Assembly (NCBI RefSeq): GCF_020687745.1
Contig: NZ_JAJEWK010000011.1
Coordinates: forward strand, 1-64,000
From: Chryseobacterium sp. MFBS3-17
GTDB taxonomy: Bacteria > Bacteroidota > Bacteroidia > Flavobacteriales > Weeksellaceae
Direction of reading: 5' to 3'
DNA: 64,000 nucleotides
Shown: positions 11,106-47,492 of the stretch, piece by piece
Layout of the letters: every line of letters starts with the position of its first letter
How positions within the stretch are numbered: the first letter of the stretch is position 1
The notes under the pieces: model-generated
What the model saw: only the letters and a program-made list of their open reading frames with translations
Told to the model about the DNA's origin: nothing
The model's database searches: none
Made by a program: the position numbers and the translations under genes

Positions 11106-12443
11106 ATGAGAGCAATGAACAGAAAAGCATTTCAGATCCTCAGCATTATTGCGCTGGTTACCGGCACGGCCTTCTTTGTGGTGTTCACTGGTACCAAAAC
11201 ACCTCAGAACTGGTTGCTGTGCGTGGCCATATCCTTCCTCTACAGCTTTCCTTTGGCCTTAGGAAACGGCTATATGAACCAATATCTGAACCGCCGTTAT
11301 TCCTGGACCGGTGATACCCGGAAAAGAGTAGCGTGGGGAATTGCCGGTACGGTGGTCCTGAATGTCCTGCTGGTTCTGGGAATCAATTATGTGGTATATA
11401 TCCTGCTGCTGAAAAACGATTCCGGGATGTTCTTCAGCGGAGATATGGCGGTGGTAAATTGGATTATGCTGAATGTGACCCTGCTCATTTCTGCTATTTT
11501 GCATGCGAAAAGTTTTATGGAGGAATGGAAAAGGTCTTCCCGTAAAGAAGTGGTGGAGCAGAAACTCATTGCCCGTTCGGCAAACGCCCAGTTCGAGAGT
11601 CTTAAAAACCAGCTGGATCCGCATTTTCTTTTTAATTCACTGAACGTGCTCAGCGCACTTATTGACGAGAATCCGGATAAAGCCCAGGATTTTACCGCTT
11701 CCATGTCCAAAATTTACCGCTATGTTCTGGAAGAGAAAGATAAGGAACTGGTGACGGTGGAGGCGGAGATTGATTTTGCCCGCACCTATTGCGAACTTCT
11801 GAAAACCCGTTTCGAGGAAAGCGTGAACTTTGAGTTTGATGTAGCGGCAGACGTACAGGACTCCTTTGTGGTGCCACTGTCCCTGCAACTGTTATTGGAA
11901 AACTGCATTAAGCATAACTACGCAACCGCCAGAAATCCACTGAATATCAGGATTTATTCTGAGGGTCAGTATCTGTTTATAGAGAACAATCTGCAAGTCC
12001 GCGAGCAGGTGAAAGAAAGTGCCGGCATTGGCCTCAGCAATATTGTGCAGCGCTATGCACTGCTCACCGGTCAGCATGTATTTATTGAGAAATCAGATGA
12101 TTTCTTCCGTGTAAAAATTCCAATTTTAAAAGAAAAAATTACAGCTATGAATCCAACACCCATCCCAAGCAACGAAGCCTACAGAAAGGCTGAGAAAAGA
12201 GTAAAAGAACTGAAAGATTTCTACGGAAACCTGATCTCCTACTGCCTGTTTATGCCGTTCCTGATCTTCATCAACCTGAAAATGACACCCGGATACCACT
12301 GGTTCTGGTGGCCGGTGCTGGGTTGGGGAATCGGCGTCATTTCTCACGCATTCCAGGTATTGCGCATCGGCAGGAACTGGGAAGAGAAACAAATCCGGAA
12401 AATTCTGGAAAAAGAAAATCAAAACAACAAGTACCATGGATAA
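11106..12443 (+). CDS. LytS/YehU-type sensor histidine kinase fused to a C-terminal 2TM domain
   Basis: 445 residues. The N-terminal 140 residues form four likely membrane helices. The His_kinase domain follows (Pfam family LytS/YehU): phospho-acceptor motif NQLDPHFLFNSLNVLS near residue 177, the N-box-like LLENCIKHNY near 262, and GIGLSNIVQRY for ATP binding. After the kinase ends (KIPILKEK near 340) a 2TM domain of about 100 residues begins at Met348 (MNPTPIPSNEAYRKAEKRV) with two helices and a basic end. The extra domain resembles the next gene, so a gene fusion is likely; Met348 could also serve as an internal start. It phosphorylates the LytTR regulator two genes downstream. The next gene overlaps it by 8 bp. 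Confidence 0.9.
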   Translation: MRAMNRKAFQILSIIALVTGTAFFVVFTGTKTPQNWLLCVAISFLYSFPLALGNGYMNQYLNRRYSWTGDTRKRVAWGIAGTVVLNVLLVLGINYVVYILLLKNDSGMFFSGDMAVVNWIMLNVTLLISAILHAKSFMEEWKRSSRKEVVEQKLIARSANAQFESLKNQLDPHFLFNSLNVLSALIDENPDKAQDFTASMSKIYRYVLEEKDKELVTVEAEIDFARTYCELLKTRFEESVNFEFDVAADVQDSFVVPLSLQLLLENCIKHNYATARNPLNIRIYSEGQYLFIENNLQVREQVKESAGIGLSNIVQRYALLTGQHVFIEKSDDFFRVKIPILKEKITAMNPTPIPSNEAYRKAEKRVKELKDFYGNLISYCLFMPFLIFINLKMTPGYHWFWWPVLGWGIGVISHAFQVLRIGRNWEEKQIRKILEKENQNNKYHG

Positions 12444-13035
12444 ACTGAACAGAAAGGATTTCCGCTACCAGCAGGCTGCCGGGCGGATCCGTGAAATCAA
12501 GGGTTATTATATCCATCTGGCGGTGTATGCAGCGGTAAACCTGGTCATTCTGATAGACTTTCTGACACAGCGGCCCGCCGATGGAGAAAACCAGCCGTAT
12601 AACTTCTTTACCGGTGTGCTGTGGGGTGCAGTCATCATCATCCACGCGGTGAGTATTTTTCTGCCGGGCATCCGCAAATGGGAACAGGCAAAAACCGAAA
12701 CTTTTTTAAAGCAGGAACTGGCTGGCAATCCGCAGAACTGTACCATGACGCCTGAAGAGGAAAATGCAGGCAAATTGCGAAAAGCCCGGGAAAAAGTGAA
12801 GAAGATAAAAGGATTCTACATCCACTCTCTGTGCTATGTGGTTGTGAATATCTTGATCATCACCATTGGACTGAACAAAGGAAAATCCATTACTGATATG
12901 GATCATTATTGGGTGGCCATCTTCTGGGGCATTGGACTCCTGAGCCACTGGGCCAGTGTTTTCATTCCGTATTTCATGCTGGGAAGCAAATGGGAAGAGC
13001 GGAAAATCCGGGAATATATGGATAAATACCCTTAA
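12436..13035 (+). CDS. tandem 2TM-domain membrane protein
   Basis: 199 residues made of two copies of the 2TM domain: residues 10-95 (AAGRIREIKGYYIHLAVYAAVNLVI ... WEQAKTE) and 110-199 (AREKVKKIKGFYIHSLCY ... WEERKIREYMDKYP). Each copy has two helices flanked by a charged amphipathic start and a W-E-x-x-K end. The kinase upstream ends with a third copy, so this operon encodes three 2TM modules. It sits between the kinase and the response regulator and overlaps the kinase gene, so it is probably a membrane partner of that sensor. The molecular function of 2TM domains is unknown. Confidence 0.85.
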   Translation: MDKLNRKDFRYQQAAGRIREIKGYYIHLAVYAAVNLVILIDFLTQRPADGENQPYNFFTGVLWGAVIIIHAVSIFLPGIRKWEQAKTETFLKQELAGNPQNCTMTPEEENAGKLRKAREKVKKIKGFYIHSLCYVVVNILIITIGLNKGKSITDMDHYWVAIFWGIGLLSHWASVFIPYFMLGSKWEERKIREYMDKYP

Positions 13036-13059
13036 CTTTAAGCACCCTGATTTGTTCTG

Positions 13060-13803
13060 ATGATAAAAACCGTAATCATTGAAGATGAAAAACCGGCTGC
13101 ACGGAAACTGGCACGGCTGCTCAGCACCATTCCGGATGTGGAGGTGGTACAAGTCCTGAATTCGGTAGAGGAAGGCTTGTCATGGTTTGGCAGCCAACCA
13201 CACCCCGATCTTATTTTTTCTGATATTGTCCTGGGAGACGGGCTTTCTTTTGATATTTTTGAAGAGGTGCCCACCAGAAGTTTCATCATTTATACCACAG
13301 CTTTTGACCAATATACCCTGAAGGCTTTTAAGCTGAACTCTATTGACTATCTGCTGAAGCCGGTGATGCCCGATGATCTGACCCGTGCGCTGGAGAAGTT
13401 CCGGAGTTTCCTCCCTTCTGAGCGTCCGCCTCATCCGGATGAAATAAAATCCCTCATCCGCAATGAAAAGCAAATATTATCCAGAATTCTGGTCAAAATA
13501 GGGTATAATCTGAAAATCATTTCCGTAGATGAAGTTTCCTGTTTTTTCAGTGAACATAAAATCGTGTATCTGCAAACGCGGGAACGGGTGTATCCCACAG
13601 ATTATACGCTGGATGAACTGCAGGATTTGCTGGATGGACGCCGTTTTTTCCGGGTAAACCGGCAATTCATTATTCACGCTGAAATGATTGCCAATATTTA
13701 CACTTCACCCTATTATAAAGTGGATTTGCTTTTTCAGCCGGAAACGGAAATTACCGTGAGCCGTGAGCGTGTGAAGTTTTTCAAAGACTGGCTTACACGC
13801 TGA
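13060..13803 (+). CDS. LytTR-family response regulator
   Basis: 247 residues. The receiver domain at 1-120 has the acidic pocket (IIEDEKPAARKL), phospho-Asp in LIFSDIVLGDG, the T/S switch in IYTTAFDQYTLKAFK and the Lys of DYLLKPV. The LytTR DNA-binding domain occupies about 140-245 (ISVDEVSCFFSEHKIVYLQT ... FFRVNRQFII). It is the output of the kinase encoded upstream. Its likely operator is the direct-repeat pair at 11025-11054 in front of the operon. Confidence 0.93.
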   Translation: MIKTVIIEDEKPAARKLARLLSTIPDVEVVQVLNSVEEGLSWFGSQPHPDLIFSDIVLGDGLSFDIFEEVPTRSFIIYTTAFDQYTLKAFKLNSIDYLLKPVMPDDLTRALEKFRSFLPSERPPHPDEIKSLIRNEKQILSRILVKIGYNLKIISVDEVSCFFSEHKIVYLQTRERVYPTDYTLDELQDLLDGRRFFRVNRQFIIHAEMIANIYTSPYYKVDLLFQPETEITVSRERVKFFKDWLTR

Positions 13804-13833: not shown

Positions 13834-14232
13834 TTAATCTTTCATGAAAACCTGCAGATCCATCCGCAACCATTTGCCTTCCCATTCTTTGGCGGTTACT
13901 TTGGCGTAGAATTGCTTGCCAACATCCATTAACCTGGCAATCGTCTGATTCTTAGATTTGGGAATGTAGCCTAATTTGGTGTCTTTGTATAGTACTCTTA
14001 TGGCAAATGCGTCATACTGATTATCCGGTTCCCGCTTTAGTGACAGTTCGGTATGATCAGGAACAATTTCTTTTTCAATATCCTGAAGATTAAGGTAGGA
14101 TGTGCCGGCTACAATGGATTCCAGTGCCAGAATGTCTTCTTCAAAAGCTTTGAAAGTGATGGCGCCGGAGTTGATTAATTTAAATAATCCGCCATCTGTT
14201 CTGCGGAGTCCGGTTGCTTCAGGCTGATCCAT
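13834..14232 (-). CDS. HIRAN-domain protein
   Basis: 132 residues; the C-terminal 100 are a HIRAN domain: VAGTSYLNLQDIEK, then LSLKREPDNQYDAFAIRV and KLGYIPKSKNQTIARLMD. HIRAN domains (as in HLTF and Rad5) bind DNA ends or 3' ends at stalled forks; stand-alone bacterial copies are of unknown function. The ATG overlaps the end of the coiled-coil frame upstream by 14 bp, so translation is probably coupled. It is the last gene of the J-domain/HIRAN operon and convergent with the LytTR gene. Confidence 0.85.
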   Translation of the reverse strand: MDQPEATGLRRTDGGLFKLINSGAITFKAFEEDILALESIVAGTSYLNLQDIEKEIVPDHTELSLKREPDNQYDAFAIRVLYKDTKLGYIPKSKNQTIARLMDVGKQFYAKVTAKEWEGKWLRMDLQVFMKD

Positions 14233-14506
14233 AAGTGTCTTTGATGATTTCGTAGTCGGCTTGTTTTTCTTTCAGGTATTGTTGCAGGTCTTCAATTTCT
14301 TTGCGCAAAGAATCCTGTTTCTCCTGTATCCAGTCTTCATCCCTTATTTTATTTGCGATATTAAATGGAAAGTCATTTTCTAATTCAGCTATTTGTTTTT
14401 CCAACTCTTTTATGCCTTGTGTCAACAGGGCTGTCTGCAGCAGAAGATCCTCTTCATTCAACTCTTTTTCTGCTGTTTCTCTGCTTTTCAATTGCTCGTT
14501 ATACAC
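14219..14506 (-). CDS. coiled-coil part of a split J-domain protein
   Basis: 95 residues from a GTG start, almost entirely heptad-like (KELEKQIAELENDF, IEDLQQYLKEKQADYEIIK). It lies in exactly the same reading frame as the J-domain gene upstream, separated from it by one TAA and four sense codons. Reading that TAA as GAA would give one continuous protein (DLNQL-E-ALQIVYNEQLK). It is therefore most likely the C-terminal half of a gene broken by one base change, rather than an independent gene. It could still be made from the GTG. Confidence 0.6.
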   Translation of the reverse strand: MYNEQLKSRETAEKELNEEDLLLQTALLTQGIKELEKQIAELENDFPFNIANKIRDEDWIQEKQDSLRKEIEDLQQYLKEKQADYEIIKDTYGSA

Positions 14507-14518
14507 AATCTGCAGCGC

Positions 14519-14998
14519 TTACAGTTGGTTCAGATCTCCGTTTTTGTAAGCGGTATAAAACACATGCCACAGATCTTGCTGTTCACCGGTCAAATCCGGG
14601 TTGATATCCGGGTGAAGATTTCTGGCAATATTTCTGTAGATTTTTCGCAGTTCCATGCTGTCTTCCGGAGAAGCCAGATTACTGAGCACCGCTCTGCCTG
14701 TCACTACTTTATTTTTGGCGGTTGAGATTTCACCTACGGCCTGCTGCATCAGTTCGCGACCGCGGATTTCGATTTCGGTAAAATCCGGATATTTCCCGAG
14801 ATTAATGTCCTGATGGGCCCACTGAATTTTCTTTTTAAGCGTTCTGATTTCAATATTCAGCTCCAGAATTTCCACTTCATACTGGCCAATCTGGGTGGCA
14901 TACAACGCTTCCAACTGAACTTTGCCCCAGTTTTTCATGACGTCCAGGTCATTGAGAACCGAGAGGTATCCCGATTTCAATATTTTTAGATCATTCAA
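14519..14998 (-). CDS. J-domain (DnaJ-like) protein, N-terminal part
   Basis: 159 residues. Residues 1-110 are mostly helical and coiled-coil-like. The end holds a J-domain core: LRKIYRNIARNLHPDINPD, with the HPD tripeptide that stimulates Hsp70 ATPase, then a helix DLWHVFYTAYKNGDLNQL. The only start for the full frame is a TTG at 14998, right after an in-frame TAA, so the original ATG may also be lost. The frame stops at TAA 14521-14519 where homologous J-domain helices normally run on (NGDLxxLExL). With the 95-residue frame downstream it looks like one damaged gene. Its partner is probably the HIRAN protein. Confidence 0.6.
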   Translation of the reverse strand: MNDLKILKSGYLSVLNDLDVMKNWGKVQLEALYATQIGQYEVEILELNIEIRTLKKKIQWAHQDINLGKYPDFTEIEIRGRELMQQAVGEISTAKNKVVTGRAVLSNLASPEDSMELRKIYRNIARNLHPDINPDLTGEQQDLWHVFYTAYKNGDLNQL

Positions 14999-15048
14999 AA
15001 GTTAAAATCATTTGTGTGTGTTTAAGTGGATATTTCTGTAGTTTAGAT

Positions 15049-34309: not shown

Positions 34310-34436
34310 CACTTGTACAAATCTCTTCAGAAATGAGGAGGTTTTTTTTTGAAAATTTGGGGCAGTTAGCTCAGTTGGTTTAGAGCGTTGCGTTGACATC
34401 GCAGAGGTCACTGGTTCGAATCCTGTACTGCCCACA
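34289..34436 (+). repeat. attL: left copy of a perfect 148-bp direct repeat
   Basis: It runs from the T-loop of tRNA-Val(TAC) through the spacer and the whole of tRNA-Val(GAC) to two bases past its end. The identical sequence occurs at 49879-50026, and flanking bases differ at both ends. The pair frames a block with its own integrase, so they are att repeats. Confidence 0.92.
34360..34434 (+). tRNA. tRNA-Val (anticodon GAC)
   Basis: 75-nt cloverleaf: acceptor GGGCAGT/ACTGCCC, anticodon stem TTGCG/CGCAG with loop TTGACAT (anticodon GAC, reading GTC and GTT), T-arm with GGTTCGAATCC, discriminator A. A second, identical copy lies at the right end of the island. Confidence 0.92.
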
Positions 34437-34447
34437 TAAAAGGAAAA

Positions 34448-34474
34448 TTTCAGAGAAATCTGAGATTTTTTTTT
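34448..34474 (+). terminator. Terminator after the tRNA-Val pair
   Basis: Stem TTTCAGA/TCTGAGA (one wobble pair) with a GAAA loop, followed by nine T residues. It lies 12 bp inside the island, so the tRNA operon now ends at an element-borne terminator. Confidence 0.65.
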
Positions 34475-34574
34475 GTTTTATACTTTTGTGTAGAGTTAGC
34501 GGGGGGTCTCAAAAACTCACTTCTTCCATTCTGTATTTCTTAATAATCTTTTCATGCTTTAAAGGCATAAAAAG

Positions 34575-34605
34575 GGAACACCAATTATTTCCTTGGAACA
34601 CCAAT
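34575..34605 (+). promoter_or_regulatory. Direct repeat GGAACACCAAT, possible integrase or operator site
   Basis: Two identical 11-mers GGAACACCAAT at 34575-34585 and 34595-34605, with a 20-bp period, lie between attL and the integrase ATG. Such repeats next to att often bind the integrase arm domain or an excisionase. No third copy was noticed elsewhere in the island. Confidence 0.4.
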
Positions 34606-34631
34606 GTAAAACCTCATTAAAACACAAAAAA

Positions 34632-35828
34632 ATGAATACTATTAAAATCTTATTTGTAATAGATAAGGCAAAATCTAATAAACTCGGATTTGCTCCTTTA
34701 AGATGTAGAATTACCTACTTAGGAGAGAGGAAACCTTTTGCTACGGGATTATTTATAAATCCTAATAATTGGAATGCTCAAAAGCAGAAAGCAATTCCAC
34801 CAAATACAGACAATACGCAAATTAACACTCAACTAAGCCTGATTAAACAAGAAATTAATCAGGCTTTTTTATTTCTACAAGTTCAAGACAAGAATTTTAA
34901 TGTTGAAGATATTTACAGACAATACAAAGGAGAAACTATCAAAGAAGAAAAATCCATAATGGAGATTTTTAACCTGCACATTGCAAAGCAGGAAAAACTT
35001 ATTGGAATATCTACCTCCAAAGTATCAGTTGCAAAATTCTACCAAACCAAGAATCATGTAAAAAACTTCATTAAATGGAAATACAATAAGCAGGATTTCC
35101 TTTTGGTAGAAATGAAAATGTCTTTTATCACAGAATTTGAGTTTTACTTAAAAGCAGAAATGAAATTTGAGCAAAATACAATTCACAAGACTTTGCAGAG
35201 GTTTAAGCAGATTGTAAAAATTGCTGTGGGATTAGACTTTTTGGATAAAGACCCATTTCTTTTATTCAAGAATAAAAGACCTAAAAAACAGGTGGTTTTT
35301 CTAACTACAGAAGAATTACAAGCCATTGAGGAGCATAAATTTGCTACAATAAGGTTACAACAAGTAGCTGATATGTTTATATTTTGTTGTTATACAGGAC
35401 TTGCTTACAAAGAAATGGCAGGATTGGTAAGGAAAGATATTTTCACAGGATTTGATGGTAAAAAATGGATTTCAGTATTTAGGGAGAAAACCAAGAAAAT
35501 TTATGAAATACCAATATTACACAAAGCAGAGGAAATTTTGAAGAAATACCAAAATGAAGAAAAAGCACTTCCTAAAATCAGTAACCAAAGGTTCAATGCC
35601 TATCTAAAGGAAATTGCTGAAATTACAGGAATTGAGAAAAACCTTACTCATCATTTGGCAAGGAAAACTTTTGCTTCCACAATACTCCTTTATAATGATG
35701 TTCCAATGGAAATTGTATCTGAACTTTTAGGACATTCTGAAATGCAGACTACACAGAACCATTATGCTAAAGTGGTTAGAAAAAAGGTTAGTGAGCAGAT
35801 GGAAAAGGTGAACTCCAAGTTGAAATAA
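34632..35828 (+). CDS. tyrosine recombinase (integrase) of the island
   Basis: 398 residues from ATG 34632, the start that follows the repeats. An N-terminal arm domain, a SAM-like core-binding domain (about 100-200) and the C-terminal catalytic domain. Catalytic residues seen: the HxxR motif in HHLARKTFAS, His in LGHSEMQTTQNHYAKV, and the nucleophile Tyr in NHYAKV. The first Arg position is TGLAYKEM, without Arg, as is common in Bacteroidota conjugative-element integrases. Its gene lies directly at attL, pointing inward. It should catalyse site-specific integration and excision at the tRNA. Confidence 0.93.
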   Translation: MNTIKILFVIDKAKSNKLGFAPLRCRITYLGERKPFATGLFINPNNWNAQKQKAIPPNTDNTQINTQLSLIKQEINQAFLFLQVQDKNFNVEDIYRQYKGETIKEEKSIMEIFNLHIAKQEKLIGISTSKVSVAKFYQTKNHVKNFIKWKYNKQDFLLVEMKMSFITEFEFYLKAEMKFEQNTIHKTLQRFKQIVKIAVGLDFLDKDPFLLFKNKRPKKQVVFLTTEELQAIEEHKFATIRLQQVADMFIFCCYTGLAYKEMAGLVRKDIFTGFDGKKWISVFREKTKKIYEIPILHKAEEILKKYQNEEKALPKISNQRFNAYLKEIAEITGIEKNLTHHLARKTFASTILLYNDVPMEIVSELLGHSEMQTTQNHYAKVVRKKVSEQMEKVNSKLK

Positions 35829-35830
35829 AA

Positions 35831-35851
35831 AGGTGGGATTTATTCCCACCT
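35831..35851 (-). terminator. Hairpin between integrase and polymerase genes
   Basis: An 8-bp stem AGGTGGGA/TCCCACCT with a 5-base loop lies where two convergent genes meet. Read on the minus strand it is followed by a short T run. It overlaps the stop codon of the polymerase gene. Confidence 0.6.
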
Positions 35852-37282
35852 CTCAATTTTCAATGTTGGCTCTGCACCAATATATTTTTTCAATATTTCT
35901 TTTAATTTTTGCTCAACATATTCCACATTATCTTCTGTTGTAATAATGGAATCATGGAGTGTAAATAATGGAATTTCTGGTCTTTCTTCTGTAATTATTT
36001 TGCAGGTTTTATGTAAAACCAGATCTGCTTCCAAATTCTGTAAAACAACAGCCAATGTTGGATGATGACCATTTTTAATGAACTTTAAAACCTCATAAAC
36101 ATTTGGAAATTGTTTTTGAAACAACTGGATGGATTTGATAAATTTTATTGAAGAATTTTTACTGAATAAGGTGCTAAAAGTTATTTCTTTGGCAGCTCCT
36201 TTAATTTCCGCAAGAGAAGTTTCCTCAATTTCACCATTTTCATTTAATATCTTTCCAAATTCTTCATAAAATCTTCCACTTGAAACAATTTCTTTAAATA
36301 ATTGAACATCTGATTCTTTGGAAATTTTATCAATCAAAACTCCAAGCATAATAATAAGAGAACTATCAGATTCCAGGATTGGATGGGCTTGGATTATTCT
36401 ATCCTGCATATCATTTCTATCATACCCCTCTTTACTTAGTAAAGCTTGTAATAAATAGGGTTGGGAATTGGTTATATCAACAGCACAGAGTGTCTTTCCA
36501 TCAAATTTGATAAATTTTCTTAAGTTGGATTTGAGTTGGGTTAAATAAGTATGCAATCTTCCTGCTGTCTTATCTACAAAGAATAATTTTTGATTGTCTC
36601 TGTATAATTTTTCAATGGGATAAAGCCTACTGTTCAACCTCAAATGTGGGTAAGCAATGTCTGGATTTTTTAAGTCCTTTCTGTATTCTTCCATCAAATA
36701 ATTTGTTGCACCTTCAATATCAATGGTCAATTTTCCAAAAAACCAACTTTTCAAATATTCCAATTGATATGAAATTTCAAAATCTTGATGATCCCTCAAA
36801 TAAGTGATGTTCTTGATTAAAGGCCACGAAGTAATTTCAACTGGTTTTAAAATACTTCTGTATGCTTCTCTAAATCTTAATCCTGCTGAAACCACACCAT
36901 TTGTATAACTACTTTCCTCTACAATTTTATGTTCTTTCAGATAATTGATGTAATCCCTGTAATTCTTGATGATTGAACCCAAAATACTTTTATTAATGGG
37001 TGTAAATCCTGAATAATTTTCAATGGATTTCTTCTTTCTGGAAGGCAAAGAATAAATCAAATCCAAAATGTAAACAAATCTATCCCTTTTATAACTGAAT
37101 TGAGGAGGATTTTGGTTCAAAATCTTGTCAATATCCAATTTTTCAGGTAAATAAAGGACAAGTTTTGGGATAAATGGATAGCCACCTTTAGTTTTTTCTA
37201 CAAGTGATGCTTCTGCACTTGGGCTATTCTGCGTATTTAAGTGGGCTGTAGAAGCAGTTCCCACTGAATGACTTTGTGCCAT
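35840..37282 (-). CDS. compact family-A-type (PolA/T7 RNAP superfamily) polymerase of unknown type
   Basis: 480 residues. The C-terminal half has all polymerase motifs of the family-A palm in order: TAGRLHTYL (residues 239-247; like the TGRLSS motif), motif A LCAVDITNSQPYLLQALLS with Asp269, motif B GAAKEITFSTLFS with Lys365, LQNLEADLVL (like the QGTAAD motif), and motif C FTLHDSIITTE with His443-Asp444. Alignment to the Pol I fingers and palm is residue by residue. There is no exonuclease domain and little room for a full thumb. The N-terminal 240 residues look helical with a possible winged helix (SILGSIIKNYRDYINYLKEHKIVEE). HDS rather than HDE in motif C recalls T7 RNA polymerase. Likely the island's replicative or primase-like enzyme; DNA, RNA or reverse-transcriptase activity cannot be told apart. 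Confidence 0.75.
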   Translation of the reverse strand: MAQSHSVGTASTAHLNTQNSPSAEASLVEKTKGGYPFIPKLVLYLPEKLDIDKILNQNPPQFSYKRDRFVYILDLIYSLPSRKKKSIENYSGFTPINKSILGSIIKNYRDYINYLKEHKIVEESSYTNGVVSAGLRFREAYRSILKPVEITSWPLIKNITYLRDHQDFEISYQLEYLKSWFFGKLTIDIEGATNYLMEEYRKDLKNPDIAYPHLRLNSRLYPIEKLYRDNQKLFFVDKTAGRLHTYLTQLKSNLRKFIKFDGKTLCAVDITNSQPYLLQALLSKEGYDRNDMQDRIIQAHPILESDSSLIIMLGVLIDKISKESDVQLFKEIVSSGRFYEEFGKILNENGEIEETSLAEIKGAAKEITFSTLFSKNSSIKFIKSIQLFQKQFPNVYEVLKFIKNGHHPTLAVVLQNLEADLVLHKTCKIITEERPEIPLFTLHDSIITTEDNVEYVEQKLKEILKKYIGAEPTLKIERWE

Positions 37283-37350
37283 TACCCCCTCTCGAGAAGG
37301 AGCTGTGCCTTTGGGGTGTTATACCCAAGAGGTGCTTACAAATTAAGCAA
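37283..37350 (-). promoter_or_regulatory. Structured GC-rich leader of the polymerase gene
   Basis: Just upstream of the start codon, minus strand, are a hairpin TTGGG/CCCAA with about 8 loop bases and a second near-palindrome around CTTCTCGAGAGG. This 50-bp GC-rich patch stands out in an otherwise very AT-rich intergenic region (37283-37514). It could control translation or act as an origin element. Nothing else was found in the intergenic space apart from AT-rich DNA. Confidence 0.35.
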
Positions 37351-37514
37351 GTGGCATCAATAATTTGATACTACAAAATTACAAAAAAAATAGCACTTTT
37401 CCAAAAACTCCCAGAAGTTTTTTCAGTTATATTTCATTGATTTTCAAAATATTATTTCAGATTTTTCTGAAATATTTATCACATTTTTATTAACTTTTAA
37501 AACCTAAAAATTTT

Positions 37515-38543
37515 ATGCAATTAAGACAATCAGAACGAAAACAAGCCAAAATCAAGATGGCTCTGCAAGGAAGTGCAGGAAGTGGAAAAACTTATTCTTC
37601 ACTACTCCTAGCCAAAGGAATTACAGGAGGAAATTTATCCAAAGTAGCTGTTATTGACACAGAATATGGAAGTGCAGATTTGTATGCCCATTTGGGCAAT
37701 TACAACGTACTTTCATTAGCACCACCTTTTACACCAGAAAACTACATTAAAGCTATTGATCTCTGTGAAAGTGAAGGAATGGAAGTCATTATTTTAGACA
37801 GTATTTCCCATTGTTGGGATGAATTATTGGATTTTCATTCTAAATTGGCAGGCAACTCATTTACCAATTGGGCAAAAGTTACACCTCGCCAAAAATCATT
37901 TGTAGATAAAATCCTACAAACCGATGCTCATGTAATAGCCACGATGAGAACCAAACAGGATTATGTACTGAACCAAAAAGATGGAAAGTTTATTCCTGAA
38001 AAAGTAGGGCTTAAATCTGTCCAAAGAGATGGTTTGGATTATGAATTCACTTTGGTTTTTGATGTAGATATTAAGCACTTCGCAGTATCAAGTAAGGACA
38101 GGACAGGTTTATTTATGGGAAAACCAGAATTTATAATTTCTGAAAACACTGGAAAGGAGATATTAGATTGGTGCAGTACAGGAACTAGTGGTTTAGATGA
38201 ACAAAAAGAGGCTATAACCCCTCAAAACCCTGCTACAAATCAAAATCCCAACCCAACTTCAAGAAATGGAAATTTGCCACAAATTGACCCACAAGAAGCC
38301 TTTGAATGTCCTGAAAATGAAGAATCCTTTGCTCCAAGTCAAGATTTATCAGAAACTACAGAAAAAGAGGTTTTTGAAGCTATTGGAAAATGTAATACCG
38401 TACAAGAATTATATGCATTGTATAAACAATTTCCACAATTTCAGCAGAGTTTGAAGGTGGATTTTGAAGCCAAAAAATCCCTGCTCATCAATTTAACTAA
38501 TCCAAAAAACTTTTCACAAAATGGAAAATCAAGAATTCAGTAA
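37515..38543 (+). CDS. RecA-fold ATPase (AAA_24, Sak4-like)
   Basis: 342 residues. Walker A GSAGSGKTYSSLLLAKG near residue 19, Walker B EVIILDSISHCWDEL near 96, and an IATMRTKQDYVL strand with sensor residues. It matches the Sak4-type phage recombinase/annealing ATPases and the AAA_24 family. The C-terminal third (from about 240) is a disordered Asn/Pro/Gln-rich tail ending in a small helical part, a likely place to bind a single-strand DNA protein. Overlaps the DUF3871 gene by 23 bp. Probably works in island replication and recombination. Confidence 0.8.
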   Translation: MQLRQSERKQAKIKMALQGSAGSGKTYSSLLLAKGITGGNLSKVAVIDTEYGSADLYAHLGNYNVLSLAPPFTPENYIKAIDLCESEGMEVIILDSISHCWDELLDFHSKLAGNSFTNWAKVTPRQKSFVDKILQTDAHVIATMRTKQDYVLNQKDGKFIPEKVGLKSVQRDGLDYEFTLVFDVDIKHFAVSSKDRTGLFMGKPEFIISENTGKEILDWCSTGTSGLDEQKEAITPQNPATNQNPNPTSRNGNLPQIDPQEAFECPENEESFAPSQDLSETTEKEVFEAIGKCNTVQELYALYKQFPQFQQSLKVDFEAKKSLLINLTNPKNFSQNGKSRIQ

Positions 38544-39768
38544 AACTCCCAACATAATAGAAGAACATACTATCCATAACACCCTGCGAATTAGAAGCGT
38601 AGCAGAAACAATGCCTCAACATCAACAGGACAAGAAATCTTTACGGGATATTTTCCTTGATGGTGAAGTTGATTTTATGGATATAGAAGATGCAGAAGTA
38701 TTTTATCCCAGTAAAATGAATGAAATACAATCAGAATCCACCCTAACTCATCTAGTATTACAGGAGGTTGAACAAAAAGAAGTTCAACCTTTTTTATTGG
38801 AAAAAACTGGAAGTAGTCCTGTCATTTTATTAGACTATAAGAAGGAGTCCAAAGAAAAACCTTTTATTGTTGCTAATACTGAAGAAGTAGAATTAGAGCA
38901 TTTGAAAAATGATTGCATTATTCCTGTATTTAGCAAAGACAATGAAAAAACCATTGCCCACCAGGAATTTATTGATGTAGTGTATGGTGCAGTTTCGGAG
39001 TTGTTTCCTTACCAAAGTATTGCAGATCCAGAGATTAGAGTTTCGCATCAAATTAAAGGCAGAACACCTGATGCCATCCATTTAAATGCAAAAGATTTAT
39101 TAGAACATCAGAAGACCATTTATTATGAAAGAATGGCATTTCTGATTAAAATCCCCAGTATTACGCATTTTGTAAATGGAAATGAAATTTCACTTTGTGT
39201 AGGTGGCGTAAGAAGTTACAATCAGGAAAACCTATATTCCAAAAAAGCATTGGAAAAGTTTAAATTCTTCATTGGATTTCAGAATTGGGTTTGCATGAAT
39301 ATGTGCATTAATACAGATGGGTTTTTAGAAAATCTGCGAGTTTCAAATGCAAGTGAACTTCAAACTAAAGTTTTAGATGTAATGCAAAATTATAATGCAG
39401 AACTACATTTAATGGAAATGAAAGAGCTTTCTCAGGATTATTTATCAGAACATCAGTTTGCACAACTCATTGGTAGAAGCAGGCTATATCAACATTTACC
39501 AAAATCTGAAAAACTCAGAATTCCTGAACTGAATTTTAATGACAGCCATATCAACACTATGGCTAAAGATTATTATGAAGACCAGAATTTCTCTAGAATG
39601 GAAGATGGTAGGATTAACCTTTGGAGTGTGTTTAATCTGTTTACACAAGCTAATAAATCCTCTTATATAGACACTTTCCTGGACAGGAATCTGAATGCTT
39701 TTGAATTTTCTAAAGGTCTTCAGAAAGCTCTCAATGGTAATTCAGATTATCATTGGTTTTTGAGTTAG
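38521..39768 (+). CDS. DUF3871-family protein
   Basis: 415 residues. Family features include the stretch LEHLKNDCIIPVFSKDNEKTIAHQEF, EIRVSHQIKGRTPDAIHLNAKDL and ICVGGVRSYNQENLYSKK-like core residues, known from Bacteroidota mobile elements. The role is unknown; some relation to element maintenance or DNA modification protection is assumed for the family. The start lies inside the end of the RecA-fold gene, so translation is coupled. The first 120 residues are low-complexity. Confidence 0.8.
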   Translation: MENQEFSKTPNIIEEHTIHNTLRIRSVAETMPQHQQDKKSLRDIFLDGEVDFMDIEDAEVFYPSKMNEIQSESTLTHLVLQEVEQKEVQPFLLEKTGSSPVILLDYKKESKEKPFIVANTEEVELEHLKNDCIIPVFSKDNEKTIAHQEFIDVVYGAVSELFPYQSIADPEIRVSHQIKGRTPDAIHLNAKDLLEHQKTIYYERMAFLIKIPSITHFVNGNEISLCVGGVRSYNQENLYSKKALEKFKFFIGFQNWVCMNMCINTDGFLENLRVSNASELQTKVLDVMQNYNAELHLMEMKELSQDYLSEHQFAQLIGRSRLYQHLPKSEKLRIPELNFNDSHINTMAKDYYEDQNFSRMEDGRINLWSVFNLFTQANKSSYIDTFLDRNLNAFEFSKGLQKALNGNSDYHWFLS

Positions 39769-39773
39769 AGGAT

Positions 39774-39797
39774 ACCCACTTCAAATATGAAGTGGGT
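39774..39797. terminator. Bidirectional terminator between DUF3871 and PIN-protein genes
   Basis: A perfect 10-bp stem ACCCACTTCA/TGAAGTGGGT with an AATA loop separates two convergent genes. Confidence 0.8.
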
Positions 39798-39798
39798 T

Positions 39799-41799
39799 CT
39801 ATTTTAACTTTTGCTGTAACTTTTCTTTGTAAGCTTTAATATTAGATTCATTATAATATCTGATGAAAACATTTGCTAGGACAAAAACATTAAATACTGA
39901 ATAAAGACCAGTAATGACCCATCTTAATATAATATTTTTCTTAAATATTTCTAAGTTTTCATAAAACTCTATGAGGTTCCAATTAGAAAAAAATCCTAAA
40001 ATCAATAGAAATGCCACAAATAGCAGTAGAGAAAACAAAAGCATATATACTGATTTAATTTGCCACTTTTTAACTTCGCTATTTATTTTTTCCCATTCTA
40101 ACTGTTTTTTTAGCTCCTGAACCTCATCTTGTAAAACTAGGTTTTCCTTACCGAGTAAATTGGAATTTAAGCTATATTCATCAACTTTCTTATCAAAGAC
40201 TTTTATTTTTTTCTCTAATTTAGTATATAGTGCAGCTAGTTTATTATTTTTATTTTTTTCAATTAATTCTTGTTTGTCAGACTCTTCTTTAATTCTCTTT
40301 ACAAATTCTATTTTATTATCTTCTGATGCAATTTCATTTAATTCTTGCACATTCTTAATTTGGCTATTTGTAATTCTAGTTGCTAAATTTAATATGTCTT
40401 TTTCTGTTATATCTTCACCACTGTATTTAAATATATTATCTTCTAATTCCTTTATTACTGCTGATTTTGGAATAGAAGAATTGAGTGAAATCGAAATCAT
40501 AGAATTTAGTCCAATTTCGGCAAACTCATCCTCATTTAATTCTTTCTTTATCTCGGGGTTAGATAACCATAAAACACTTAGCAGTTCATCTGCCCTTATA
40601 CTTTCTGAAATAAATTCCTTTTGATATATACCTTCGTTCGTGTCGATATTATTAATCGAATTATTTACAAACCAGCATTTTGCTTGTTCAAATTTGGTTA
40701 CCTTTTTTCCTCTCTTTTCTTTTACATATAGTAATGCCGTAGCATCATGCAATGCTGAAACCTTATTTAATCTAACCTCCTTCAAAGATTTGTACTCCTC
40801 AGTTTGTTTTGCTTTGCTTCTCATATTATCTTGAATAAATAATATGAAGAAACCCATTTTGTTTAATGTGTCCTGAATATTATCTGCAATTCTTTCCAAG
40901 TCAACTTTGTTCAAACCTCTTCTTTCACAAGCATTTAATATATCCTCCGGATTTACATATTTTATTAGAGTTGAATTATTAATATTTTCCGCTTTTTTGT
41001 AAAGTAATTGTTGAATTTCTTTTATGGTGTCATTCATTAAAGAAATTTTATATCCTCTTCTCCTACTTAATTCAATGACCTTCTCACAAGTTTTTGTGGA
41101 TTCGGTTGTATTTAAATCCATTAAACTAATCACGAAATTTGTATCTAGTAAAAGTTCAACTTCGTCTTTATATTCACTTATTTCAAATTCTAAATAAGTA
41201 GAAATTAGAGATCCTAAATATATATTTTTTATCAAGTCGAAAATATTGGGAATATTTTTGAAATAGTCAATAAATTTTGCCTCTATGACACCATTCTTTG
41301 TATTTTCAACTTTTAGATCGCTATTAAGGTGCTTCAGTAAAGATTTTTTATTTTTATCAATATATTCAACAATGGAAAACTCTGTTTTATATTCATTAAT
41401 TTGACAAAATTCTTTGAATAAATTATTCAACTCAAAGATTTCTTTTGACTTCTCCTGATAAAGCTGCTCGTATTCGTAGAAATAATATTTTTTTATTTGG
41501 TAAGAATGATCACTGTACAATTTGAAATTCTCTTCACCAGAAACATTTTCTTCTGCCTGAATTTTTGCTAGGATCTTACTTAAAACTGGAATTGGTATTT
41601 CGAGAGAGAACATAGCGGTTATTTCATCAGAAATTTCAATAATAGATTTTCCAGCTTTGATACCTTTTGTATTAAGTGAGTTTAATGCTCTTTTTGCTAA
41701 AGGTAAAAAGTAGTCAATTGGTCCTTCAACAAAAGTTCCTGAATTTCTTATATGGGATAGCAAACTATAAGTAGTTGCTTTTTTTTGATTATCTGTCAT
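39799..41799 (-). CDS. membrane-anchored PIN-like nuclease
   Basis: 666 residues. Residues 1-205 are a helical domain (VEGPIDYFLPLAKRALNSL, a dense amphipathic pattern). Next is a PIN-like domain at about 213-390: Asp219 in LLLDTNFVISL, Glu261 in MNDTIKEIQQLL, Asp352 in ALHDATALLYV and CWFVNNS at 375-381 for the fourth site. Then a helical region, a coiled coil at about 505-580 and two membrane helices at about 584-604 and 625-647, so the nuclease faces the cytoplasm. I know no named system with this exact order. It follows the Mrr-like gene by about 74 bp. Probably an RNase effector of a defence or abortive-infection module. Confidence 0.65.
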   Translation of the reverse strand: MTDNQKKATTYSLLSHIRNSGTFVEGPIDYFLPLAKRALNSLNTKGIKAGKSIIEISDEITAMFSLEIPIPVLSKILAKIQAEENVSGEENFKLYSDHSYQIKKYYFYEYEQLYQEKSKEIFELNNLFKEFCQINEYKTEFSIVEYIDKNKKSLLKHLNSDLKVENTKNGVIEAKFIDYFKNIPNIFDLIKNIYLGSLISTYLEFEISEYKDEVELLLDTNFVISLMDLNTTESTKTCEKVIELSRRRGYKISLMNDTIKEIQQLLYKKAENINNSTLIKYVNPEDILNACERRGLNKVDLERIADNIQDTLNKMGFFILFIQDNMRSKAKQTEEYKSLKEVRLNKVSALHDATALLYVKEKRGKKVTKFEQAKCWFVNNSINNIDTNEGIYQKEFISESIRADELLSVLWLSNPEIKKELNEDEFAEIGLNSMISISLNSSIPKSAVIKELEDNIFKYSGEDITEKDILNLATRITNSQIKNVQELNEIASEDNKIEFVKRIKEESDKQELIEKNKNNKLAALYTKLEKKIKVFDKKVDEYSLNSNLLGKENLVLQDEVQELKKQLEWEKINSEVKKWQIKSVYMLLFSLLLFVAFLLILGFFSNWNLIEFYENLEIFKKNIILRWVITGLYSVFNVFVLANVFIRYYNESNIKAYKEKLQQKLK

Positions 41800-41873
41800 T
41801 ATGATGTTTATTGCAATAGCTATTTTTAGTTGTTAATTCACATAACCTTAAATAATTCCATAAAATTCTATTA

Positions 41874-43034
41874 TTATTCACCTCTCCATCTGAAGGCTTT
41901 CCTGTAACCTTTATTTTCAGCCTCCTCAACAGTTAGAACATTCTCACCACCATTGAGAACATTTTGGGTGATGTCATATTTCTGGTCGAATGGAAGATGA
42001 TAAATATAGGTTGGTAAACCATATTCATCTTTACCTATATTACACTTTATCCGTGGGTAATTTTTGTTATAAGGTATTGTCAATACCTCAATCCTCAGGG
42101 CTTCCGCAAATTCTAAGGCAGTGGATGATAATTCTGTTGTAGTTATAAAGACAGGCTTAAAATCTTCATTAAAAGGAATCCCAATATCCTCGAACAAAGA
42201 GCCTTTTGATTTATATTTATTTACTTCCCATTTATCTAAATAATATTTCATGGAAGTTCCAAAAAGCTGGTTTATAGCATTTTCATGAATGTTTTTTGTC
42301 TTACTCCAGTTTTTGCACTGAATTAGTAATGTCTCCTTTCCCTTCTTACAAATCAAATCAATACCTAAATCAGCTAAACCTTTTTTTATACCATGATATT
42401 GCACTTTGTAACCTTGTTGCTCATAAATATAACCAATATATCTTTCATAATCTTGACCAACTGCAGATTTGCTCATTTTTCTATTAACATATCTGTCTAA
42501 AGCTATTTGTAAAATTTCAGTTCGACTTAACTGTATTTGTTCAGTCTGTTTAACTAAGAGGTCAATTTTATCAGTCGTGTCTACTTCTACATCATCTAAA
42601 TATTTATCTTCACTTGTAATGTCAACAATTTCTTCTACATCTGGAATTAAACTCTCGATTTGACTAAGTTGCTGTTCAAGATCAAGAACTTTTCTTCTTA
42701 GTACCTTATTTTCTTTTGCAAACTCCTTCTGAGCTTCAAAACATTTTGTAGCGTATCTTCCTTTCGGATACACAATGCTTTTTTCATCTAGTAGGAAATA
42801 AAAATCAGCATATTTATCTTTTAACCACTCAACTGAAGTGAAAACGTTTTCATAAACACCTTTCAATTCTTCCTTATCATTATTGATTCCTTCTTTAAGC
42901 CTAATTAAACTTTCTTTTTCATTGATTATATTTTTTTCCGTAGTTATAAGTTTTTGATTTATAGCAACAAATTCCTCTTTAAGCGTTAAAAGTTCTTGAA
43001 GTCTATTATTTAATCTATTACTAAAAAACTTCAT
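41874..43034 (-). CDS. coiled-coil protein with a Mrr-like restriction endonuclease domain
   Basis: 386 residues. The N-terminal 130 are a coiled coil (QLLTLKEEFVAINQKLI, ENKVLRRKVLDLEQQLSQIES). From about 185 the PD-(D/E)xK domain of Mrr/Restriction_endonuc family: GQDYERYIGYIYEQQGY with the helix Glu197, DLGIDLICKKG with Asp226 and LLIQCKNWS with Gln239-x-Lys241, the Q-x-K variant. The rest is beta-rich (VFITTTELSS, IEVLTIPY). It probably cleaves modified or foreign DNA. Encoded 5 bp after the two-TM gene. Confidence 0.75.
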   Translation of the reverse strand: MKFFSNRLNNRLQELLTLKEEFVAINQKLITTEKNIINEKESLIRLKEGINNDKEELKGVYENVFTSVEWLKDKYADFYFLLDEKSIVYPKGRYATKCFEAQKEFAKENKVLRRKVLDLEQQLSQIESLIPDVEEIVDITSEDKYLDDVEVDTTDKIDLLVKQTEQIQLSRTEILQIALDRYVNRKMSKSAVGQDYERYIGYIYEQQGYKVQYHGIKKGLADLGIDLICKKGKETLLIQCKNWSKTKNIHENAINQLFGTSMKYYLDKWEVNKYKSKGSLFEDIGIPFNEDFKPVFITTTELSSTALEFAEALRIEVLTIPYNKNYPRIKCNIGKDEYGLPTYIYHLPFDQKYDITQNVLNGGENVLTVEEAENKGYRKAFRWRGE

Positions 43035-43039
43035 GGTAT

Positions 43040-43366
43040 TTATTTATAATTTTTGAGATTAGATTTCTGTTTATCAATTTCTTGTTCATATTGATACTCC
43101 AGATTCTTTATATGTTTGCGATTAATCAAACAATCTAAGTAATATATAAGCTCACGCATAATAAATTTGAAATTAACTATCATAAGAAAAGATCCAATAA
43201 GTAAAATAGCACCCGTCATGGTAGCTACCCAAGCATTAGAAAATTCAATTCCAAATGTTTGCAGTCTAGAGTTAAGCCAATTACCAAATATATAAGCAAC
43301 GGCAATAAATATTGCACCTCCAAATATTAAAGCAAAACAGCCTTCTTCGTCCCTACTATAACTCAT
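43040..43366 (-). CDS. small two-TM protein of the restriction cluster
   Basis: 108 residues with two hydrophobic helices (residues about 10-28 and 47-65) and a charged C-terminal helix (EYQYEQEIDKQKSNLKNYK). It sits between the type IIG enzyme (2 bp) and the Mrr-like gene (5 bp), so it is part of the same operon. The family is not recognised. It could be the membrane partner of one of the nucleases. Confidence 0.55.
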   Translation of the reverse strand: MSYSRDEEGCFALIFGGAIFIAVAYIFGNWLNSRLQTFGIEFSNAWVATMTGAILLIGSFLMIVNFKFIMRELIYYLDCLINRKHIKNLEYQYEQEIDKQKSNLKNYK

Positions 43367-43368
43367 AA

Positions 43369-46300
43369 TTATTGTTTTTCAATTAATTCAATTTCCTCCT
43401 CACTCAATCCATAAAGCTCATAGACCATCTGATCTATTTCTTTATCTGTACTAGCTATTTTGGATTGAATTTCTAATGCTTTGCTTTTTTCCTGATCAAA
43501 ATAATCTGCCCATTCTGCTTCTTCTGAAAGGGTGAGTTTTATTTTTTGTTTTGCCAGTTCTCTTATGTACTCTGGATAGGAGAGTTTGTACCATTCTAAC
43601 AATTTTTTTGATTTAATAACATCATTAAATCTTCTGGATATAGACTGCAAAAATTTATATATTATGTTGTCCAACTGTTCATTTAAGAGTAACATAAGAC
43701 TTGCCTTTTCAGAAATTCTAGTGTTGCCACTTTTCTTTATCGGGACGTTTTTTATGGAGGTCAGTGATATCCTTGGAAATAAATTTTGTTTACTCTTTTC
43801 AGAGGTGTTATTGATATAGAAACCCATAAGTCTAGAGTTTAGAATTGCTAGTAGTTCAAGCTTAAAATCTTCATCAGTTTTTACCAAAATTACAGCTTTA
43901 TTGCCTACACTTATGTCCTTGGACAGTGTGCAAAGTAAATTAGCCTTGCTAGGAATTTCCCTAACCATGATAGTATTTGTACTAATAAAATTTTTAGCAG
44001 GTTTATTATAATTCCATTCACCATATGAAACATACTCTTTGGTTGGTGCTAACCTATATCTCCCTATCATACTACCTCCAACTTCTGGAATATAAGTTTG
44101 GTTTTTTTTCTCGAGAGAATGGTAAATTCTGTTTTTTATCTGTTCTTGTGTATGAATAGAATTGTGATAGACTTGTAACCCTATTGTATATTCAGCAATT
44201 TGGTAAAGTGGTGTAGAGTTGTTTTTAATCTTTTTAATTATCCCAAAATATTCTGATTCTTCTAGTATTTCAAACTTTTCAAGATTATCTTGTACTTCAT
44301 ATGAATTTGTATTTAATGCCTTTGCGAGAGTCTCAGGAGATGGATTTTTTGATAAATCAGTTATAAATTCTACGTTTTTTCGCTGATTGAAATTTTTAGA
44401 AAGTATAAAAATTGCTGTGTTGACACCTGCAGTTTCAAATACCATCCCCTTAAATGTTAAGATTTGAATAATTGCTGTTTTAGATTTTATAAAAGCACGT
44501 AGTTTTTGCGAAGAAGGAATTGTTAAAAAAGAACTTGGTGTTATAAATGAAAGATAGCCTGCATCATTTAGTAAGTTTATGCTTTTTTCTATAAATATTC
44601 TATATAAATCAGGTTTGCCCTCTATAGTTGAGAAATTTGCTGTTAGGAATTTTTTTACACCAGGTTGAAGTTGCTGTTGAACATATGGCGGATTCCCAAT
44701 CACAACATCAAAACCACCTTTGGCAAATACTTGTGGGAATTCTTTTTCCCACTTAAAAGCTTTCTCACCCGCAATCTCAGGATCATCAATTAAGGAATTC
44801 CCGCACTTGATATTATCATTTAAACTGTTAAGCTTTCTGTTAGGTTCTGCTGTCCTAAGCCACAGAGAAAGTTTGGCTATTTCTACAGATTCCTCATTAA
44901 GATCTACTCCAAATAAATTATTCTCTAAAATACTCTCAGAATGGTAGGTAAAGGTGAAAGATGAGCCTGTAAGTTTTGTTTCCAATTCATCAACATAATT
45001 ATGCTCTGTGATCAAGAAATTGAGTGCTTCATTTAAAAATGCCCCGGAACCACATGCAGGATCTACAATAGTAAGTTGATGTAGCCAATCTCTATAAGTA
45101 TTCAATCTACCAAGAAGGTTTTCCTTAGTTTTTAGCTGTCTTTTTTTATCTGTGAAGTATTCCTCTTCAATGATGCCAATATCTAATTTTTTCTCTTCAC
45201 AAAGCTTTCCAACTGTATTTTCAACAATGTATTTGGTAATATATTTTGGGGTGTAAAAGACACCATCCTTCTTCCTCTTTGTTTTAGTTTTATCTATTTC
45301 CTGTCCCTCTAATTGAGCTTTGATTTCATCAATTTCATTCAGGGAATTTTCAAAAATATGTCCAAGAATATTTACATCTACTTCACTGGCAAAATCATAT
45401 TCTGAAAGCTTAGAAGCATGCTTAAAAAGCAGATCATCATCTATTGTAATTGAATCCAGAATTTCATCAGGTTTAAAAAGACCACCATTATATGCAAAGA
45501 CATCATGGTGTTTACCTTTAAAACCAGTATTAAGGTATCCAAAATATTTTTTGAATCTGTGATATAACGGGACATATTCATCCAGGTCCCGTAGTTTTTC
45601 CCATTGCTGTAAAATTAGCCTTACAGAGTTTGGTGGAAGTAAACCCCTGTCTTCTCCAAAAAACAGGAAAAGCAATCTATCTAAAAGCTTCTGAGATTTC
45701 TGGAAAAGTTCCAGTGCATCATACTGAGGATTTTGAGCAGTAAGATTTTGGAATAATTCTCTTTTAAAAACAGAATAGTCTTTGTACAGTTTTTTAGTTA
45801 TTGCATCTTCTTGGCTTAAGGATTCATCCTTAATTTTTCCAGGAATATTCTGCTGAATGTTTTCATATGCTAGACACAAATAAAGCAAGTTAAACTGCTC
45901 CTGATCAAGCTCAAACAGATTAAATTCAATATGTTCAATTGCATTGTCTATGTAGAGTCTCAACTTCTCAAAATTGGAAGTGATGACATATTTACAGTTC
46001 AGCTGGTTATTCTTATATCCAAATGCCTGATCCTCAATTTTTGATAGATCTGTTGTATTGGTTCCCTTAAGTTCAATAATTCCAACTACATTATCACCAA
46101 TAATAATTGCACCATCAGCTTTTTTACTGTCTTTTACATTTTTATATTCTGTGGTAAGATTAAAGTTTGGAGTTGGGTTTTTGGTATAGCCCAACACATT
46201 AACAAACAGGTCAATTAAAAACTCACCCTGATATTGTTCTTCCTTGGAATTTCTAATATTTTCCTGAATGGTGGGGTTGTGAAAGTGCTCACGAAATACC

Positions 46301-46377
46301 TCCCACTTTTGGGAAATTGTTTCTGGATTTTGAGTTTTTAAGTATTTGGTGATTACTGTTTTTTGGAATAGTGACAT
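43369..46377 (-). CDS. type IIG restriction-modification enzyme (Eco57I-like)
   Basis: 1002 residues with all parts of a single-chain restriction-modification enzyme. A nuclease site near the N-terminus (Asp88 in KKADGAIIIGD and Glu102-Leu-Lys104 in IIELKGT), a helical linker, N6-adenine methyltransferase motif I DPACGSGAFL (Asp439) and motif IV NPPY (562-565), and a C-terminal target-recognition domain with a TaqI-like fold (about 700-1000). It methylates and cuts on the same strand side of a target site unknown from sequence. It follows the SRAP gene by 9 bp. Confidence 0.9.
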   Translation of the reverse strand: MSLFQKTVITKYLKTQNPETISQKWEVFREHFHNPTIQENIRNSKEEQYQGEFLIDLFVNVLGYTKNPTPNFNLTTEYKNVKDSKKADGAIIIGDNVVGIIELKGTNTTDLSKIEDQAFGYKNNQLNCKYVITSNFEKLRLYIDNAIEHIEFNLFELDQEQFNLLYLCLAYENIQQNIPGKIKDESLSQEDAITKKLYKDYSVFKRELFQNLTAQNPQYDALELFQKSQKLLDRLLFLFFGEDRGLLPPNSVRLILQQWEKLRDLDEYVPLYHRFKKYFGYLNTGFKGKHHDVFAYNGGLFKPDEILDSITIDDDLLFKHASKLSEYDFASEVDVNILGHIFENSLNEIDEIKAQLEGQEIDKTKTKRKKDGVFYTPKYITKYIVENTVGKLCEEKKLDIGIIEEEYFTDKKRQLKTKENLLGRLNTYRDWLHQLTIVDPACGSGAFLNEALNFLITEHNYVDELETKLTGSSFTFTYHSESILENNLFGVDLNEESVEIAKLSLWLRTAEPNRKLNSLNDNIKCGNSLIDDPEIAGEKAFKWEKEFPQVFAKGGFDVVIGNPPYVQQQLQPGVKKFLTANFSTIEGKPDLYRIFIEKSINLLNDAGYLSFITPSSFLTIPSSQKLRAFIKSKTAIIQILTFKGMVFETAGVNTAIFILSKNFNQRKNVEFITDLSKNPSPETLAKALNTNSYEVQDNLEKFEILEESEYFGIIKKIKNNSTPLYQIAEYTIGLQVYHNSIHTQEQIKNRIYHSLEKKNQTYIPEVGGSMIGRYRLAPTKEYVSYGEWNYNKPAKNFISTNTIMVREIPSKANLLCTLSKDISVGNKAVILVKTDEDFKLELLAILNSRLMGFYINNTSEKSKQNLFPRISLTSIKNVPIKKSGNTRISEKASLMLLLNEQLDNIIYKFLQSISRRFNDVIKSKKLLEWYKLSYPEYIRELAKQKIKLTLSEEAEWADYFDQEKSKALEIQSKIASTDKEIDQMVYELYGLSEEEIELIEKQ

Positions 46378-46386
46378 AGTTGTATT

Positions 46387-47025
46387 TTAGAATAGAGAAT
46401 TCTGCTGAGTTAAATTAGTTGCTTCCAGTTCTGCTTCATAATTTGGAAAAGCAAAATCTTCTAATGGTATATCATCTAGCCATCTATATTGAACCTGTTT
46501 ATTGAGTAAAATAGGCATTCTTTGTTTGGTATTATGAATTTCAGACATCAGTTCATTGGCTTGTGTTGTAACTACAGTTACTGTTGGTATTTCTTTGCCT
46601 GTTTCTGGGTCTTTCCAAATATTATATAGACCACCTAAAGCAAAAATAGGTTGGTCTTTTACCTTTATCAGGTATTGCTCCTTATTTTTTCCCTTTTCAT
46701 CAAGCCATTGCCATTCGTGAAATCCATTGACCAAAATTAAACACCTTTGATTTACAGAGTTTTTATAGCTTTTCAGTTCATCAGCAGTTTCAATTCTTGC
46801 ATTAAGAGTTTTCTTTTGAAAATCCCTGTTTTTTGACCAAAAAGGTATTAATCCCCATTCAGCAGGAATAATATGGTCTGTATGTGAGTCCTTAATGATA
46901 GGAACTCTAGGATTTGCAAAACCATTAATTCTGAACTCTCTGTGATATGGTTCTCCAACATATTCAGCTCCAAAATATTCTTCAAGTTCTTGGGCTTCTG
47001 AAAGAAGTGAAATATAGTTACACAC
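46387..47025 (-). CDS. SRAP-family protein (YedK/HMCES-like)
   Basis: 212 residues with a GTG start so that Cys2 (MCNYIS) follows the initiator Met, as needed for the SRAP DNA-protein crosslink to abasic sites. The other catalytic residues are in LNARIETADE and CLILVNGFHEWQW, the His near MSEIHNTKQRMPILL. It shields abasic sites in single-stranded DNA. In phage and plasmid loci it may help survive the island's own or invading damage. First gene of the restriction cluster. Confidence 0.9.
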   Translation of the reverse strand: MCNYISLLSEAQELEEYFGAEYVGEPYHREFRINGFANPRVPIIKDSHTDHIIPAEWGLIPFWSKNRDFQKKTLNARIETADELKSYKNSVNQRCLILVNGFHEWQWLDEKGKNKEQYLIKVKDQPIFALGGLYNIWKDPETGKEIPTVTVVTTQANELMSEIHNTKQRMPILLNKQVQYRWLDDIPLEDFAFPNYEAELEATNLTQQNSLF

Positions 47026-47056
47026 AATAAAAATTAAAGATATAAAAATAGTAAAA

Positions 47057-47227: not shown

Positions 47228-47320
47228 TTATCCTAATTAAAAAAAAATTGGACTACCACGAAATAAGATGTGAAAAAAAAATTCCAAAAAAATAAAATTT
47301 TCATAGTATTTACTCTTTTG

Positions 47321-47385: not shown

Positions 47386-47492
47386 GAAAATTCAAAAATT
47401 TCAGGCAGATTAAATTTTAGTTGATAGCAAGATTTGATTTGTAGAAGTGTAGTTTTTCTTTGGAGGTTTTTCTAACTCAAAAATCAACAACA

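Follow-up and report, generated by a model that had tools for sequence, protein, structure and literature searches.

A gene for a J-domain-like protein on the minus strand of the window (the whole 64,000-nucleotide stretch analysed here) is interrupted by a single premature stop codon, and the explanation that fits best, at a probability of roughly 70%, is a recent nonsense mutation that has started the loss of a dispensable gene pair, formed by the J gene and the HIRAN gene behind it. The frame extends from TTG 14998 to the stop codon at 14221–14219 (259 codons before that stop, the internal TAA included) and is cut once, by TAA 14521–14519. An earlier reading of this DNA (the sequence-only reading) had described two in-phase frames separated by this TAA, here delimited as 159 and 99 codons, and an intact HIRAN gene; both descriptions are borne out, the latter because 14232–13834 is open throughout. 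The part upstream of the TAA contains the HPD core of a J domain (Pfam DnaJ, E 6.5e-5, under the curated cut-off), and the part downstream reaches the cut-off of no Pfam family, the best matches being coiled-coil families. The features are collected in Table 1. It also lists genes of a low-GC (28–33%) integrative element observed at 34360–50025 of the window, the ends of which are a tRNA-Val(gac) gene (34360–34435) and an identical copy (49950–50025), with the identity extending 71 bases before and 1 base after.

Table 1. Positions of the features discussed in the text, in window coordinates.
Feature	Position	Strand	Remark
2TM histidine kinase, 2TM protein and LytTR regulator	11106–13803	+	Block absent in three sister species
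HIRAN gene, intact	13834–14232	−	Start overlaps J frame by 14 bases
J gene, 3′ part	14219–14518	−	99 codons (14518–14222) plus original stop; possible GTG restart at 14506
Premature in-frame TAA	14519–14521	−	Sense codon in 16/16 homologues
J gene, 5′ part, from TTG; HPD motif	14522–14998	−	159 codons
First in-frame ATG of J frame	14936–14938	−	Within conserved part
Out-of-frame ATG upstream of J frame	15009–15011	−	Possible shifted ancestral start (unproven)
Tyrosine integrase inside element	34593–35828		
Mrr-type endonuclease inside element	41874–43034		
Eco57I/MmeI-like restriction-modification gene inside element	43369–46377		
SRAP gene inside element	46387–47025		

That the two frames once were one gene is apparent from the intact homologues (comparisons comprised one genome per species). 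With the 5′ part as the only query in the genus and family searches, a match was found in 6 of 296 family genomes, including the window's own. The five relatives (L002–L006) each have one uninterrupted frame of 257–265 codons, behind which comes a HIRAN gene that overlaps it. One of them, on the same contig of Kaistella yonginensis (Weeksellaceae) as L009, is L004, which is 72% identical to the window in the 5′ part and 67% in the 3′ part; another, L005, lies on the same contig as L008, of Chryseobacterium sp. HSC-36S06. A profile of the five reads across the stop of the window with an E value of 1.8e-107 and passes exactly one TAA, which excludes chance pairing of two frames. Profile searches of the order and of the phylum matched 292 and 250 of 395 genomes, respectively, at E 0.001 or better; most of the matches listed were short and confined to the J domain, and only full-length ones were used. 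From the best 30 full-length matches in the phylum, 11 further homologues (L051–L061) in other Bacteroidota were drawn. As an observation aside, matches to other J domains at five loci (L030, L035, L041, L046 and L050) also span one TAA and may overrun the start of an intact gene.

At the column of the stop, all 16 intact homologues (5 of the same family and 11 of other Bacteroidota) have a sense codon, encoding Gln in eight cases (all from one genus and close kin of each other), Lys in six, and Glu and Arg in one each; the five family relatives have Lys (4) or Glu (1). None of the 16 shares the stop, and none is split into two proteins; relatives with both properties had been named by the sequence-only reading as the observation that would speak against a broken gene, and were looked for. 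The single frame and the sense codon in every homologue thus uphold the proposed nonsense change in a once-intact gene. The more specific proposal of a change from GAA to TAA stands as far as a one-codon nonsense change is concerned, but not in the original residue: because Lys and Gln are usual in this column and Glu occurs once, Glu is not the best guess.

The beginning of the frame is unusual, too. Two stop codons are in frame just upstream (TAA 15004–15002 and TGA 15010–15008), the first start codon behind them is TTG 14998–14996, and the relatives start with an in-frame ATG four to six residues ahead of the position of this TTG. The claim that the sole upstream start is a TTG behind another in-frame stop is therefore accurate, and that the gene lacks an ATG holds upstream of the conserved part, but not within it, where an in-frame ATG is present at 14938–14936. 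Either TTG 14998 or ATG 14938 could be used as start. If the ATG at 15011 was the ancestral start, it would have been shifted by a small indel, which would represent a second lesion in a region too diverged for proof.

The age of the stop was approached via the degree of decay. Past the stop, the J gene contains neither a frameshift nor a second stop codon. The three nearest relatives agree with each other at 118 columns; the stop itself aside, the window departs from them at 14 of these, in 7 cases upstream and in 7 downstream of it, and each of these changes scores 1 or more in BLOSUM62. Radical window-specific changes (0 or less) amounted to 0 of 14 in the J gene versus 4 of 9 in the HIRAN gene; the intact gene has more of them than the broken one, a point against the preferred reading. 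Nonsynonymous divergence between the window and L004, the closest pair, was 0.194 after the stop versus 0.169 before it, a ratio resembling that of intact pairs (0.283 to 0.253 for L004–L002 and 0.309 to 0.234 for L004–L005); the exception was window–L005, with 0.373 to 0.233. Synonymous sites were saturated against all relatives compared (pS 0.67–0.96 over all pairs), which precluded a branch-specific dN/dS. In relative-rate counts, the window had more unique changes than L004 in the J 5′ part (11 to 8 and 19 to 5) and in the 3′ part (10 to 6 twice), as well as in the intact HIRAN gene (13 to 7 and 16 to 6), and the excess is therefore not specific to the broken gene. In 2,000 simulated runs, the gene was still without a radical change or a new stop in 5.3% of the runs after 10 neutral substitutions (0.013 per site) and in 0.4% after 20; the simulation thus puts the end of constraint, if it has come, at under about 1.3% neutral divergence. 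Together with the 14 conservative changes, this indicates that constraint is either still in force or was lifted recently. Signs of decay or of relaxed constraint beyond the lesion, as in an established pseudogene, were not found in the J gene, which from its sequence would mean that the stop is recent or that the gene is still used.

The same absence of decay is also expected from continued use and from a one-base sequencing error. Continued use, either of a functional truncated product or of two separate polypeptides, with translation of the second reinitiated at GTG 14506, four codons past the stop, is unlikely in our judgment. It would agree with the equally undecayed state of both parts, with the position of the HPD core upstream of the stop, and with the 95-residue frame which that GTG opens, and reinitiation there would also keep translation of HIRAN coupled; however, the gene is split in none of the 16 homologues, the 3′ part contains no ATG, and the sister species do without the pair.

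Slightly less probable still, in our view, is that the TAA stems from an error of sequencing or assembly, or from a mutation confined to the culture that was sequenced. A single base suffices for this, and nothing else is decayed. On the other hand, the genome is 99.66% complete in 13 contigs, the 5′ end of the J gene is odd as well, and the contig does not appear to be generally affected. On its 223 kb, 329 pairs of in-phase stretches are present in which one stop is flanked by 50 codons or more on either side; the 15 highest-ranking pairs by coding score were inspected. In 11 of these, an ATG follows 0–9 codons past the stop, and they were taken as neighboring genes by this position alone; three are antisense to longer open frames (1,224, 561, and 237 codons); the J frame is the only interrupted gene in this set, which thus shows no sign of stop codons being read through generally or of a noisy assembly. 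Programmed or suppressor-driven readthrough of the TAA is very improbable: the frame is conserved on both sides of it, but the stop occurs in none of the homologues, no other likely case was seen among the 15 best pairs, and the only tRNAs found in the window, to which the search bearing on suppressors was limited, were three tRNA-Val. Of the verdict that the gene is "dying or read through", the first half fits the comparisons, whereas the second finds no support, the stop being a TAA that 0 of 16 relatives share.

A nonsense mutation at the start of gene loss also fits the distribution of the locus within the lineage. The 5′ part of the J gene and the HIRAN gene were each found in one of four genomes of the genus. 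All three sister species have four genes in the order prc, sodC, mnmA, and clpC, without 2TM kinase, 2TM, LytTR, HIRAN, and J genes; the block of the window comprising 2TM kinase, 2TM, LytTR, HIRAN, and J is thus missing between sodC and mnmA. The identities of mnmA, LytTR, and 2TM rest on Pfam, and prc, sodC, and clpC are what we take the remaining genes to be from recognition of their sequences. In K. yonginensis, the neighborhood consists of mnmA, a Fic gene, J, HIRAN, a reverse-strand gene, LytTR, and 2TM, and in strain HSC-36S06 prc is near the pair. Because the locus is common to another genus, loss of the block in the sisters appears more likely than gain in the lineage of the window. 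A stop in the first gene, with the whole block absent from the sisters, fits a loss in progress.

For the preferred reading, a recent nonsense mutation, the consequences can be envisaged as follows. The first gene of a conserved two-gene module, encoding a J protein with long predicted helices and preceding an overlapping HIRAN gene, would recently have gained the stop. Translation would end eight residues past the predicted helix III of the J domain; the product, no longer than about 159 residues, would keep the HPD core and lack the C-terminal third. HIRAN, the start of which overlaps the original J stop, would lose its normal translational coupling, and the pair would be dispensable and in the process of being lost in this lineage. 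In having one nonsense change, intact relatives, and a locus absent in sisters, the gene resembles ordinary recent bacterial pseudogenes, but it differs from them in having no decay so far.

The HPD motif of J-domain proteins (Hsp40, PF00226) is present in 17 of 17 aligned sequences, including that of the window. DnaJ is the best Pfam match for L004, L002, L003, and the 5′ part of the window; however, these score 23.4–26.5 bits and L059 scores 19.6, versus a curated cut-off of 27.8, and L060 and L061 have no DnaJ match, which is why the protein is called J-domain-like. Also different from other members is the predicted location of the J domain in the middle of the protein, between long helices, as judged from a poor model of the K. 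yonginensis protein (4-row alignment, mean pLDDT 60.4) that serves as a rough helix map only. The gene is not the dnaJ of this genome, in which the cut-off is exceeded by three further J-domain genes. The protein encoded downstream (13837–14232) clearly belongs to the stand-alone prokaryotic HIRAN proteins (PF08797, 53.3 bits versus a curated cut-off of 24.7), but is, as a difference, tied to a J-domain gene by its overlapping start. It also matches the profiles of the PADLOC candidate PDC-M03B (best E 3.3e-11); these are, however, 232–255 positions long, with the HIRAN match near their C-terminal end, and the J protein does not match them. The name PDC-M03B was not found in a literature search.

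HIRAN adjoins J in all 16 homologues with a J-profile score above 100 bits, a border set after the list was seen, and at least 14 of the 16 pairs have a HIRAN start that overlaps the stop of J. Near 18 weaker full-length J matches outside this set (58–95 bits; L062–L079), no HIRAN gene was detected within the fetched flanks. Other neighbors are a SNF2 helicase resembling BrxHI or HmaA (L089 and L091), a type IIG restriction gene (L093), a vWA protein (L094), and the R gene of a type I restriction system (L096, from the family of the window); at the remaining pair loci, none of them was detected by tblastn, for which some of these proteins served as queries. HIRAN is the sole constant neighbor of J; the others vary, and no constant association with a known effector gene, as in a defense system, was found. 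The SNF2 helicase (L089:1460–4294 and L091:2744–5578) is separated from the J-HIRAN pair downstream of it by about 40 bases. The notion of this helicase as a regular third member of the locus was rejected: it occurs at two of the eight similar loci L051–L058 (the nearly identical L089 and L091) and not at the other six, two of which offer little flanking sequence (L056 is a contig of 3.2 kb, and the contig of L053 ends 1.4 kb upstream). In eukaryotic HLTF, HIRAN and SNF2 helicase domains are fused in one protein, and the L089/L091 arrangement is a bacterial neighborhood of these domains.

Two further candidate assignments were abandoned. With regard to an origin from mobile elements, tblastn with the L004 J protein gave no match in 72,556 plasmid or 50,697 phage records, and of the 169 pattern hits from a scan of viral contigs with alignment A2, none was confirmed. 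With regard to a known defense family for J, PADLOC gave nothing for L004, the 5′ part of the window, L051, or L061, and only weak matches for L002 (E 0.066) and L006 (E 9e-4, to part of the MukB-like JetC model).

For annotation, the locus calls for caution, as it represents one interrupted gene, not two small proteins. A nonsense stop is in itself an ordinary event, and the conserved J-HIRAN pair is more interesting than the stop. The pair is tightly linked and sporadic in its distribution, seems little studied, and is possibly undescribed as such; the titles and abstract openings returned by a literature search contained no description of it. Judging from the domains, the J protein presumably recruits Hsp70 (DnaK) to a DNA or protein target bound by HIRAN. 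A more far-reaching proposal, which we regard as tentative and rather doubtful, is that J-HIRAN is an undescribed module of Bacteroidota in which J brings Hsp70 to a DNA end or a stalled fork bound by HIRAN, that it acts as an accessory of DNA maintenance or defense, repeatedly gained and lost, and that in the window its first gene has been knocked out naturally. A published article states that single-stranded DNA is bound by the eukaryotic HIRAN homologues fused to helicases, and it terms prokaryotic HIRAN domains uncharacterised (PMC11090510); with the latter in mind, it would matter if the pair ties the Hsp70 system to DNA ends.
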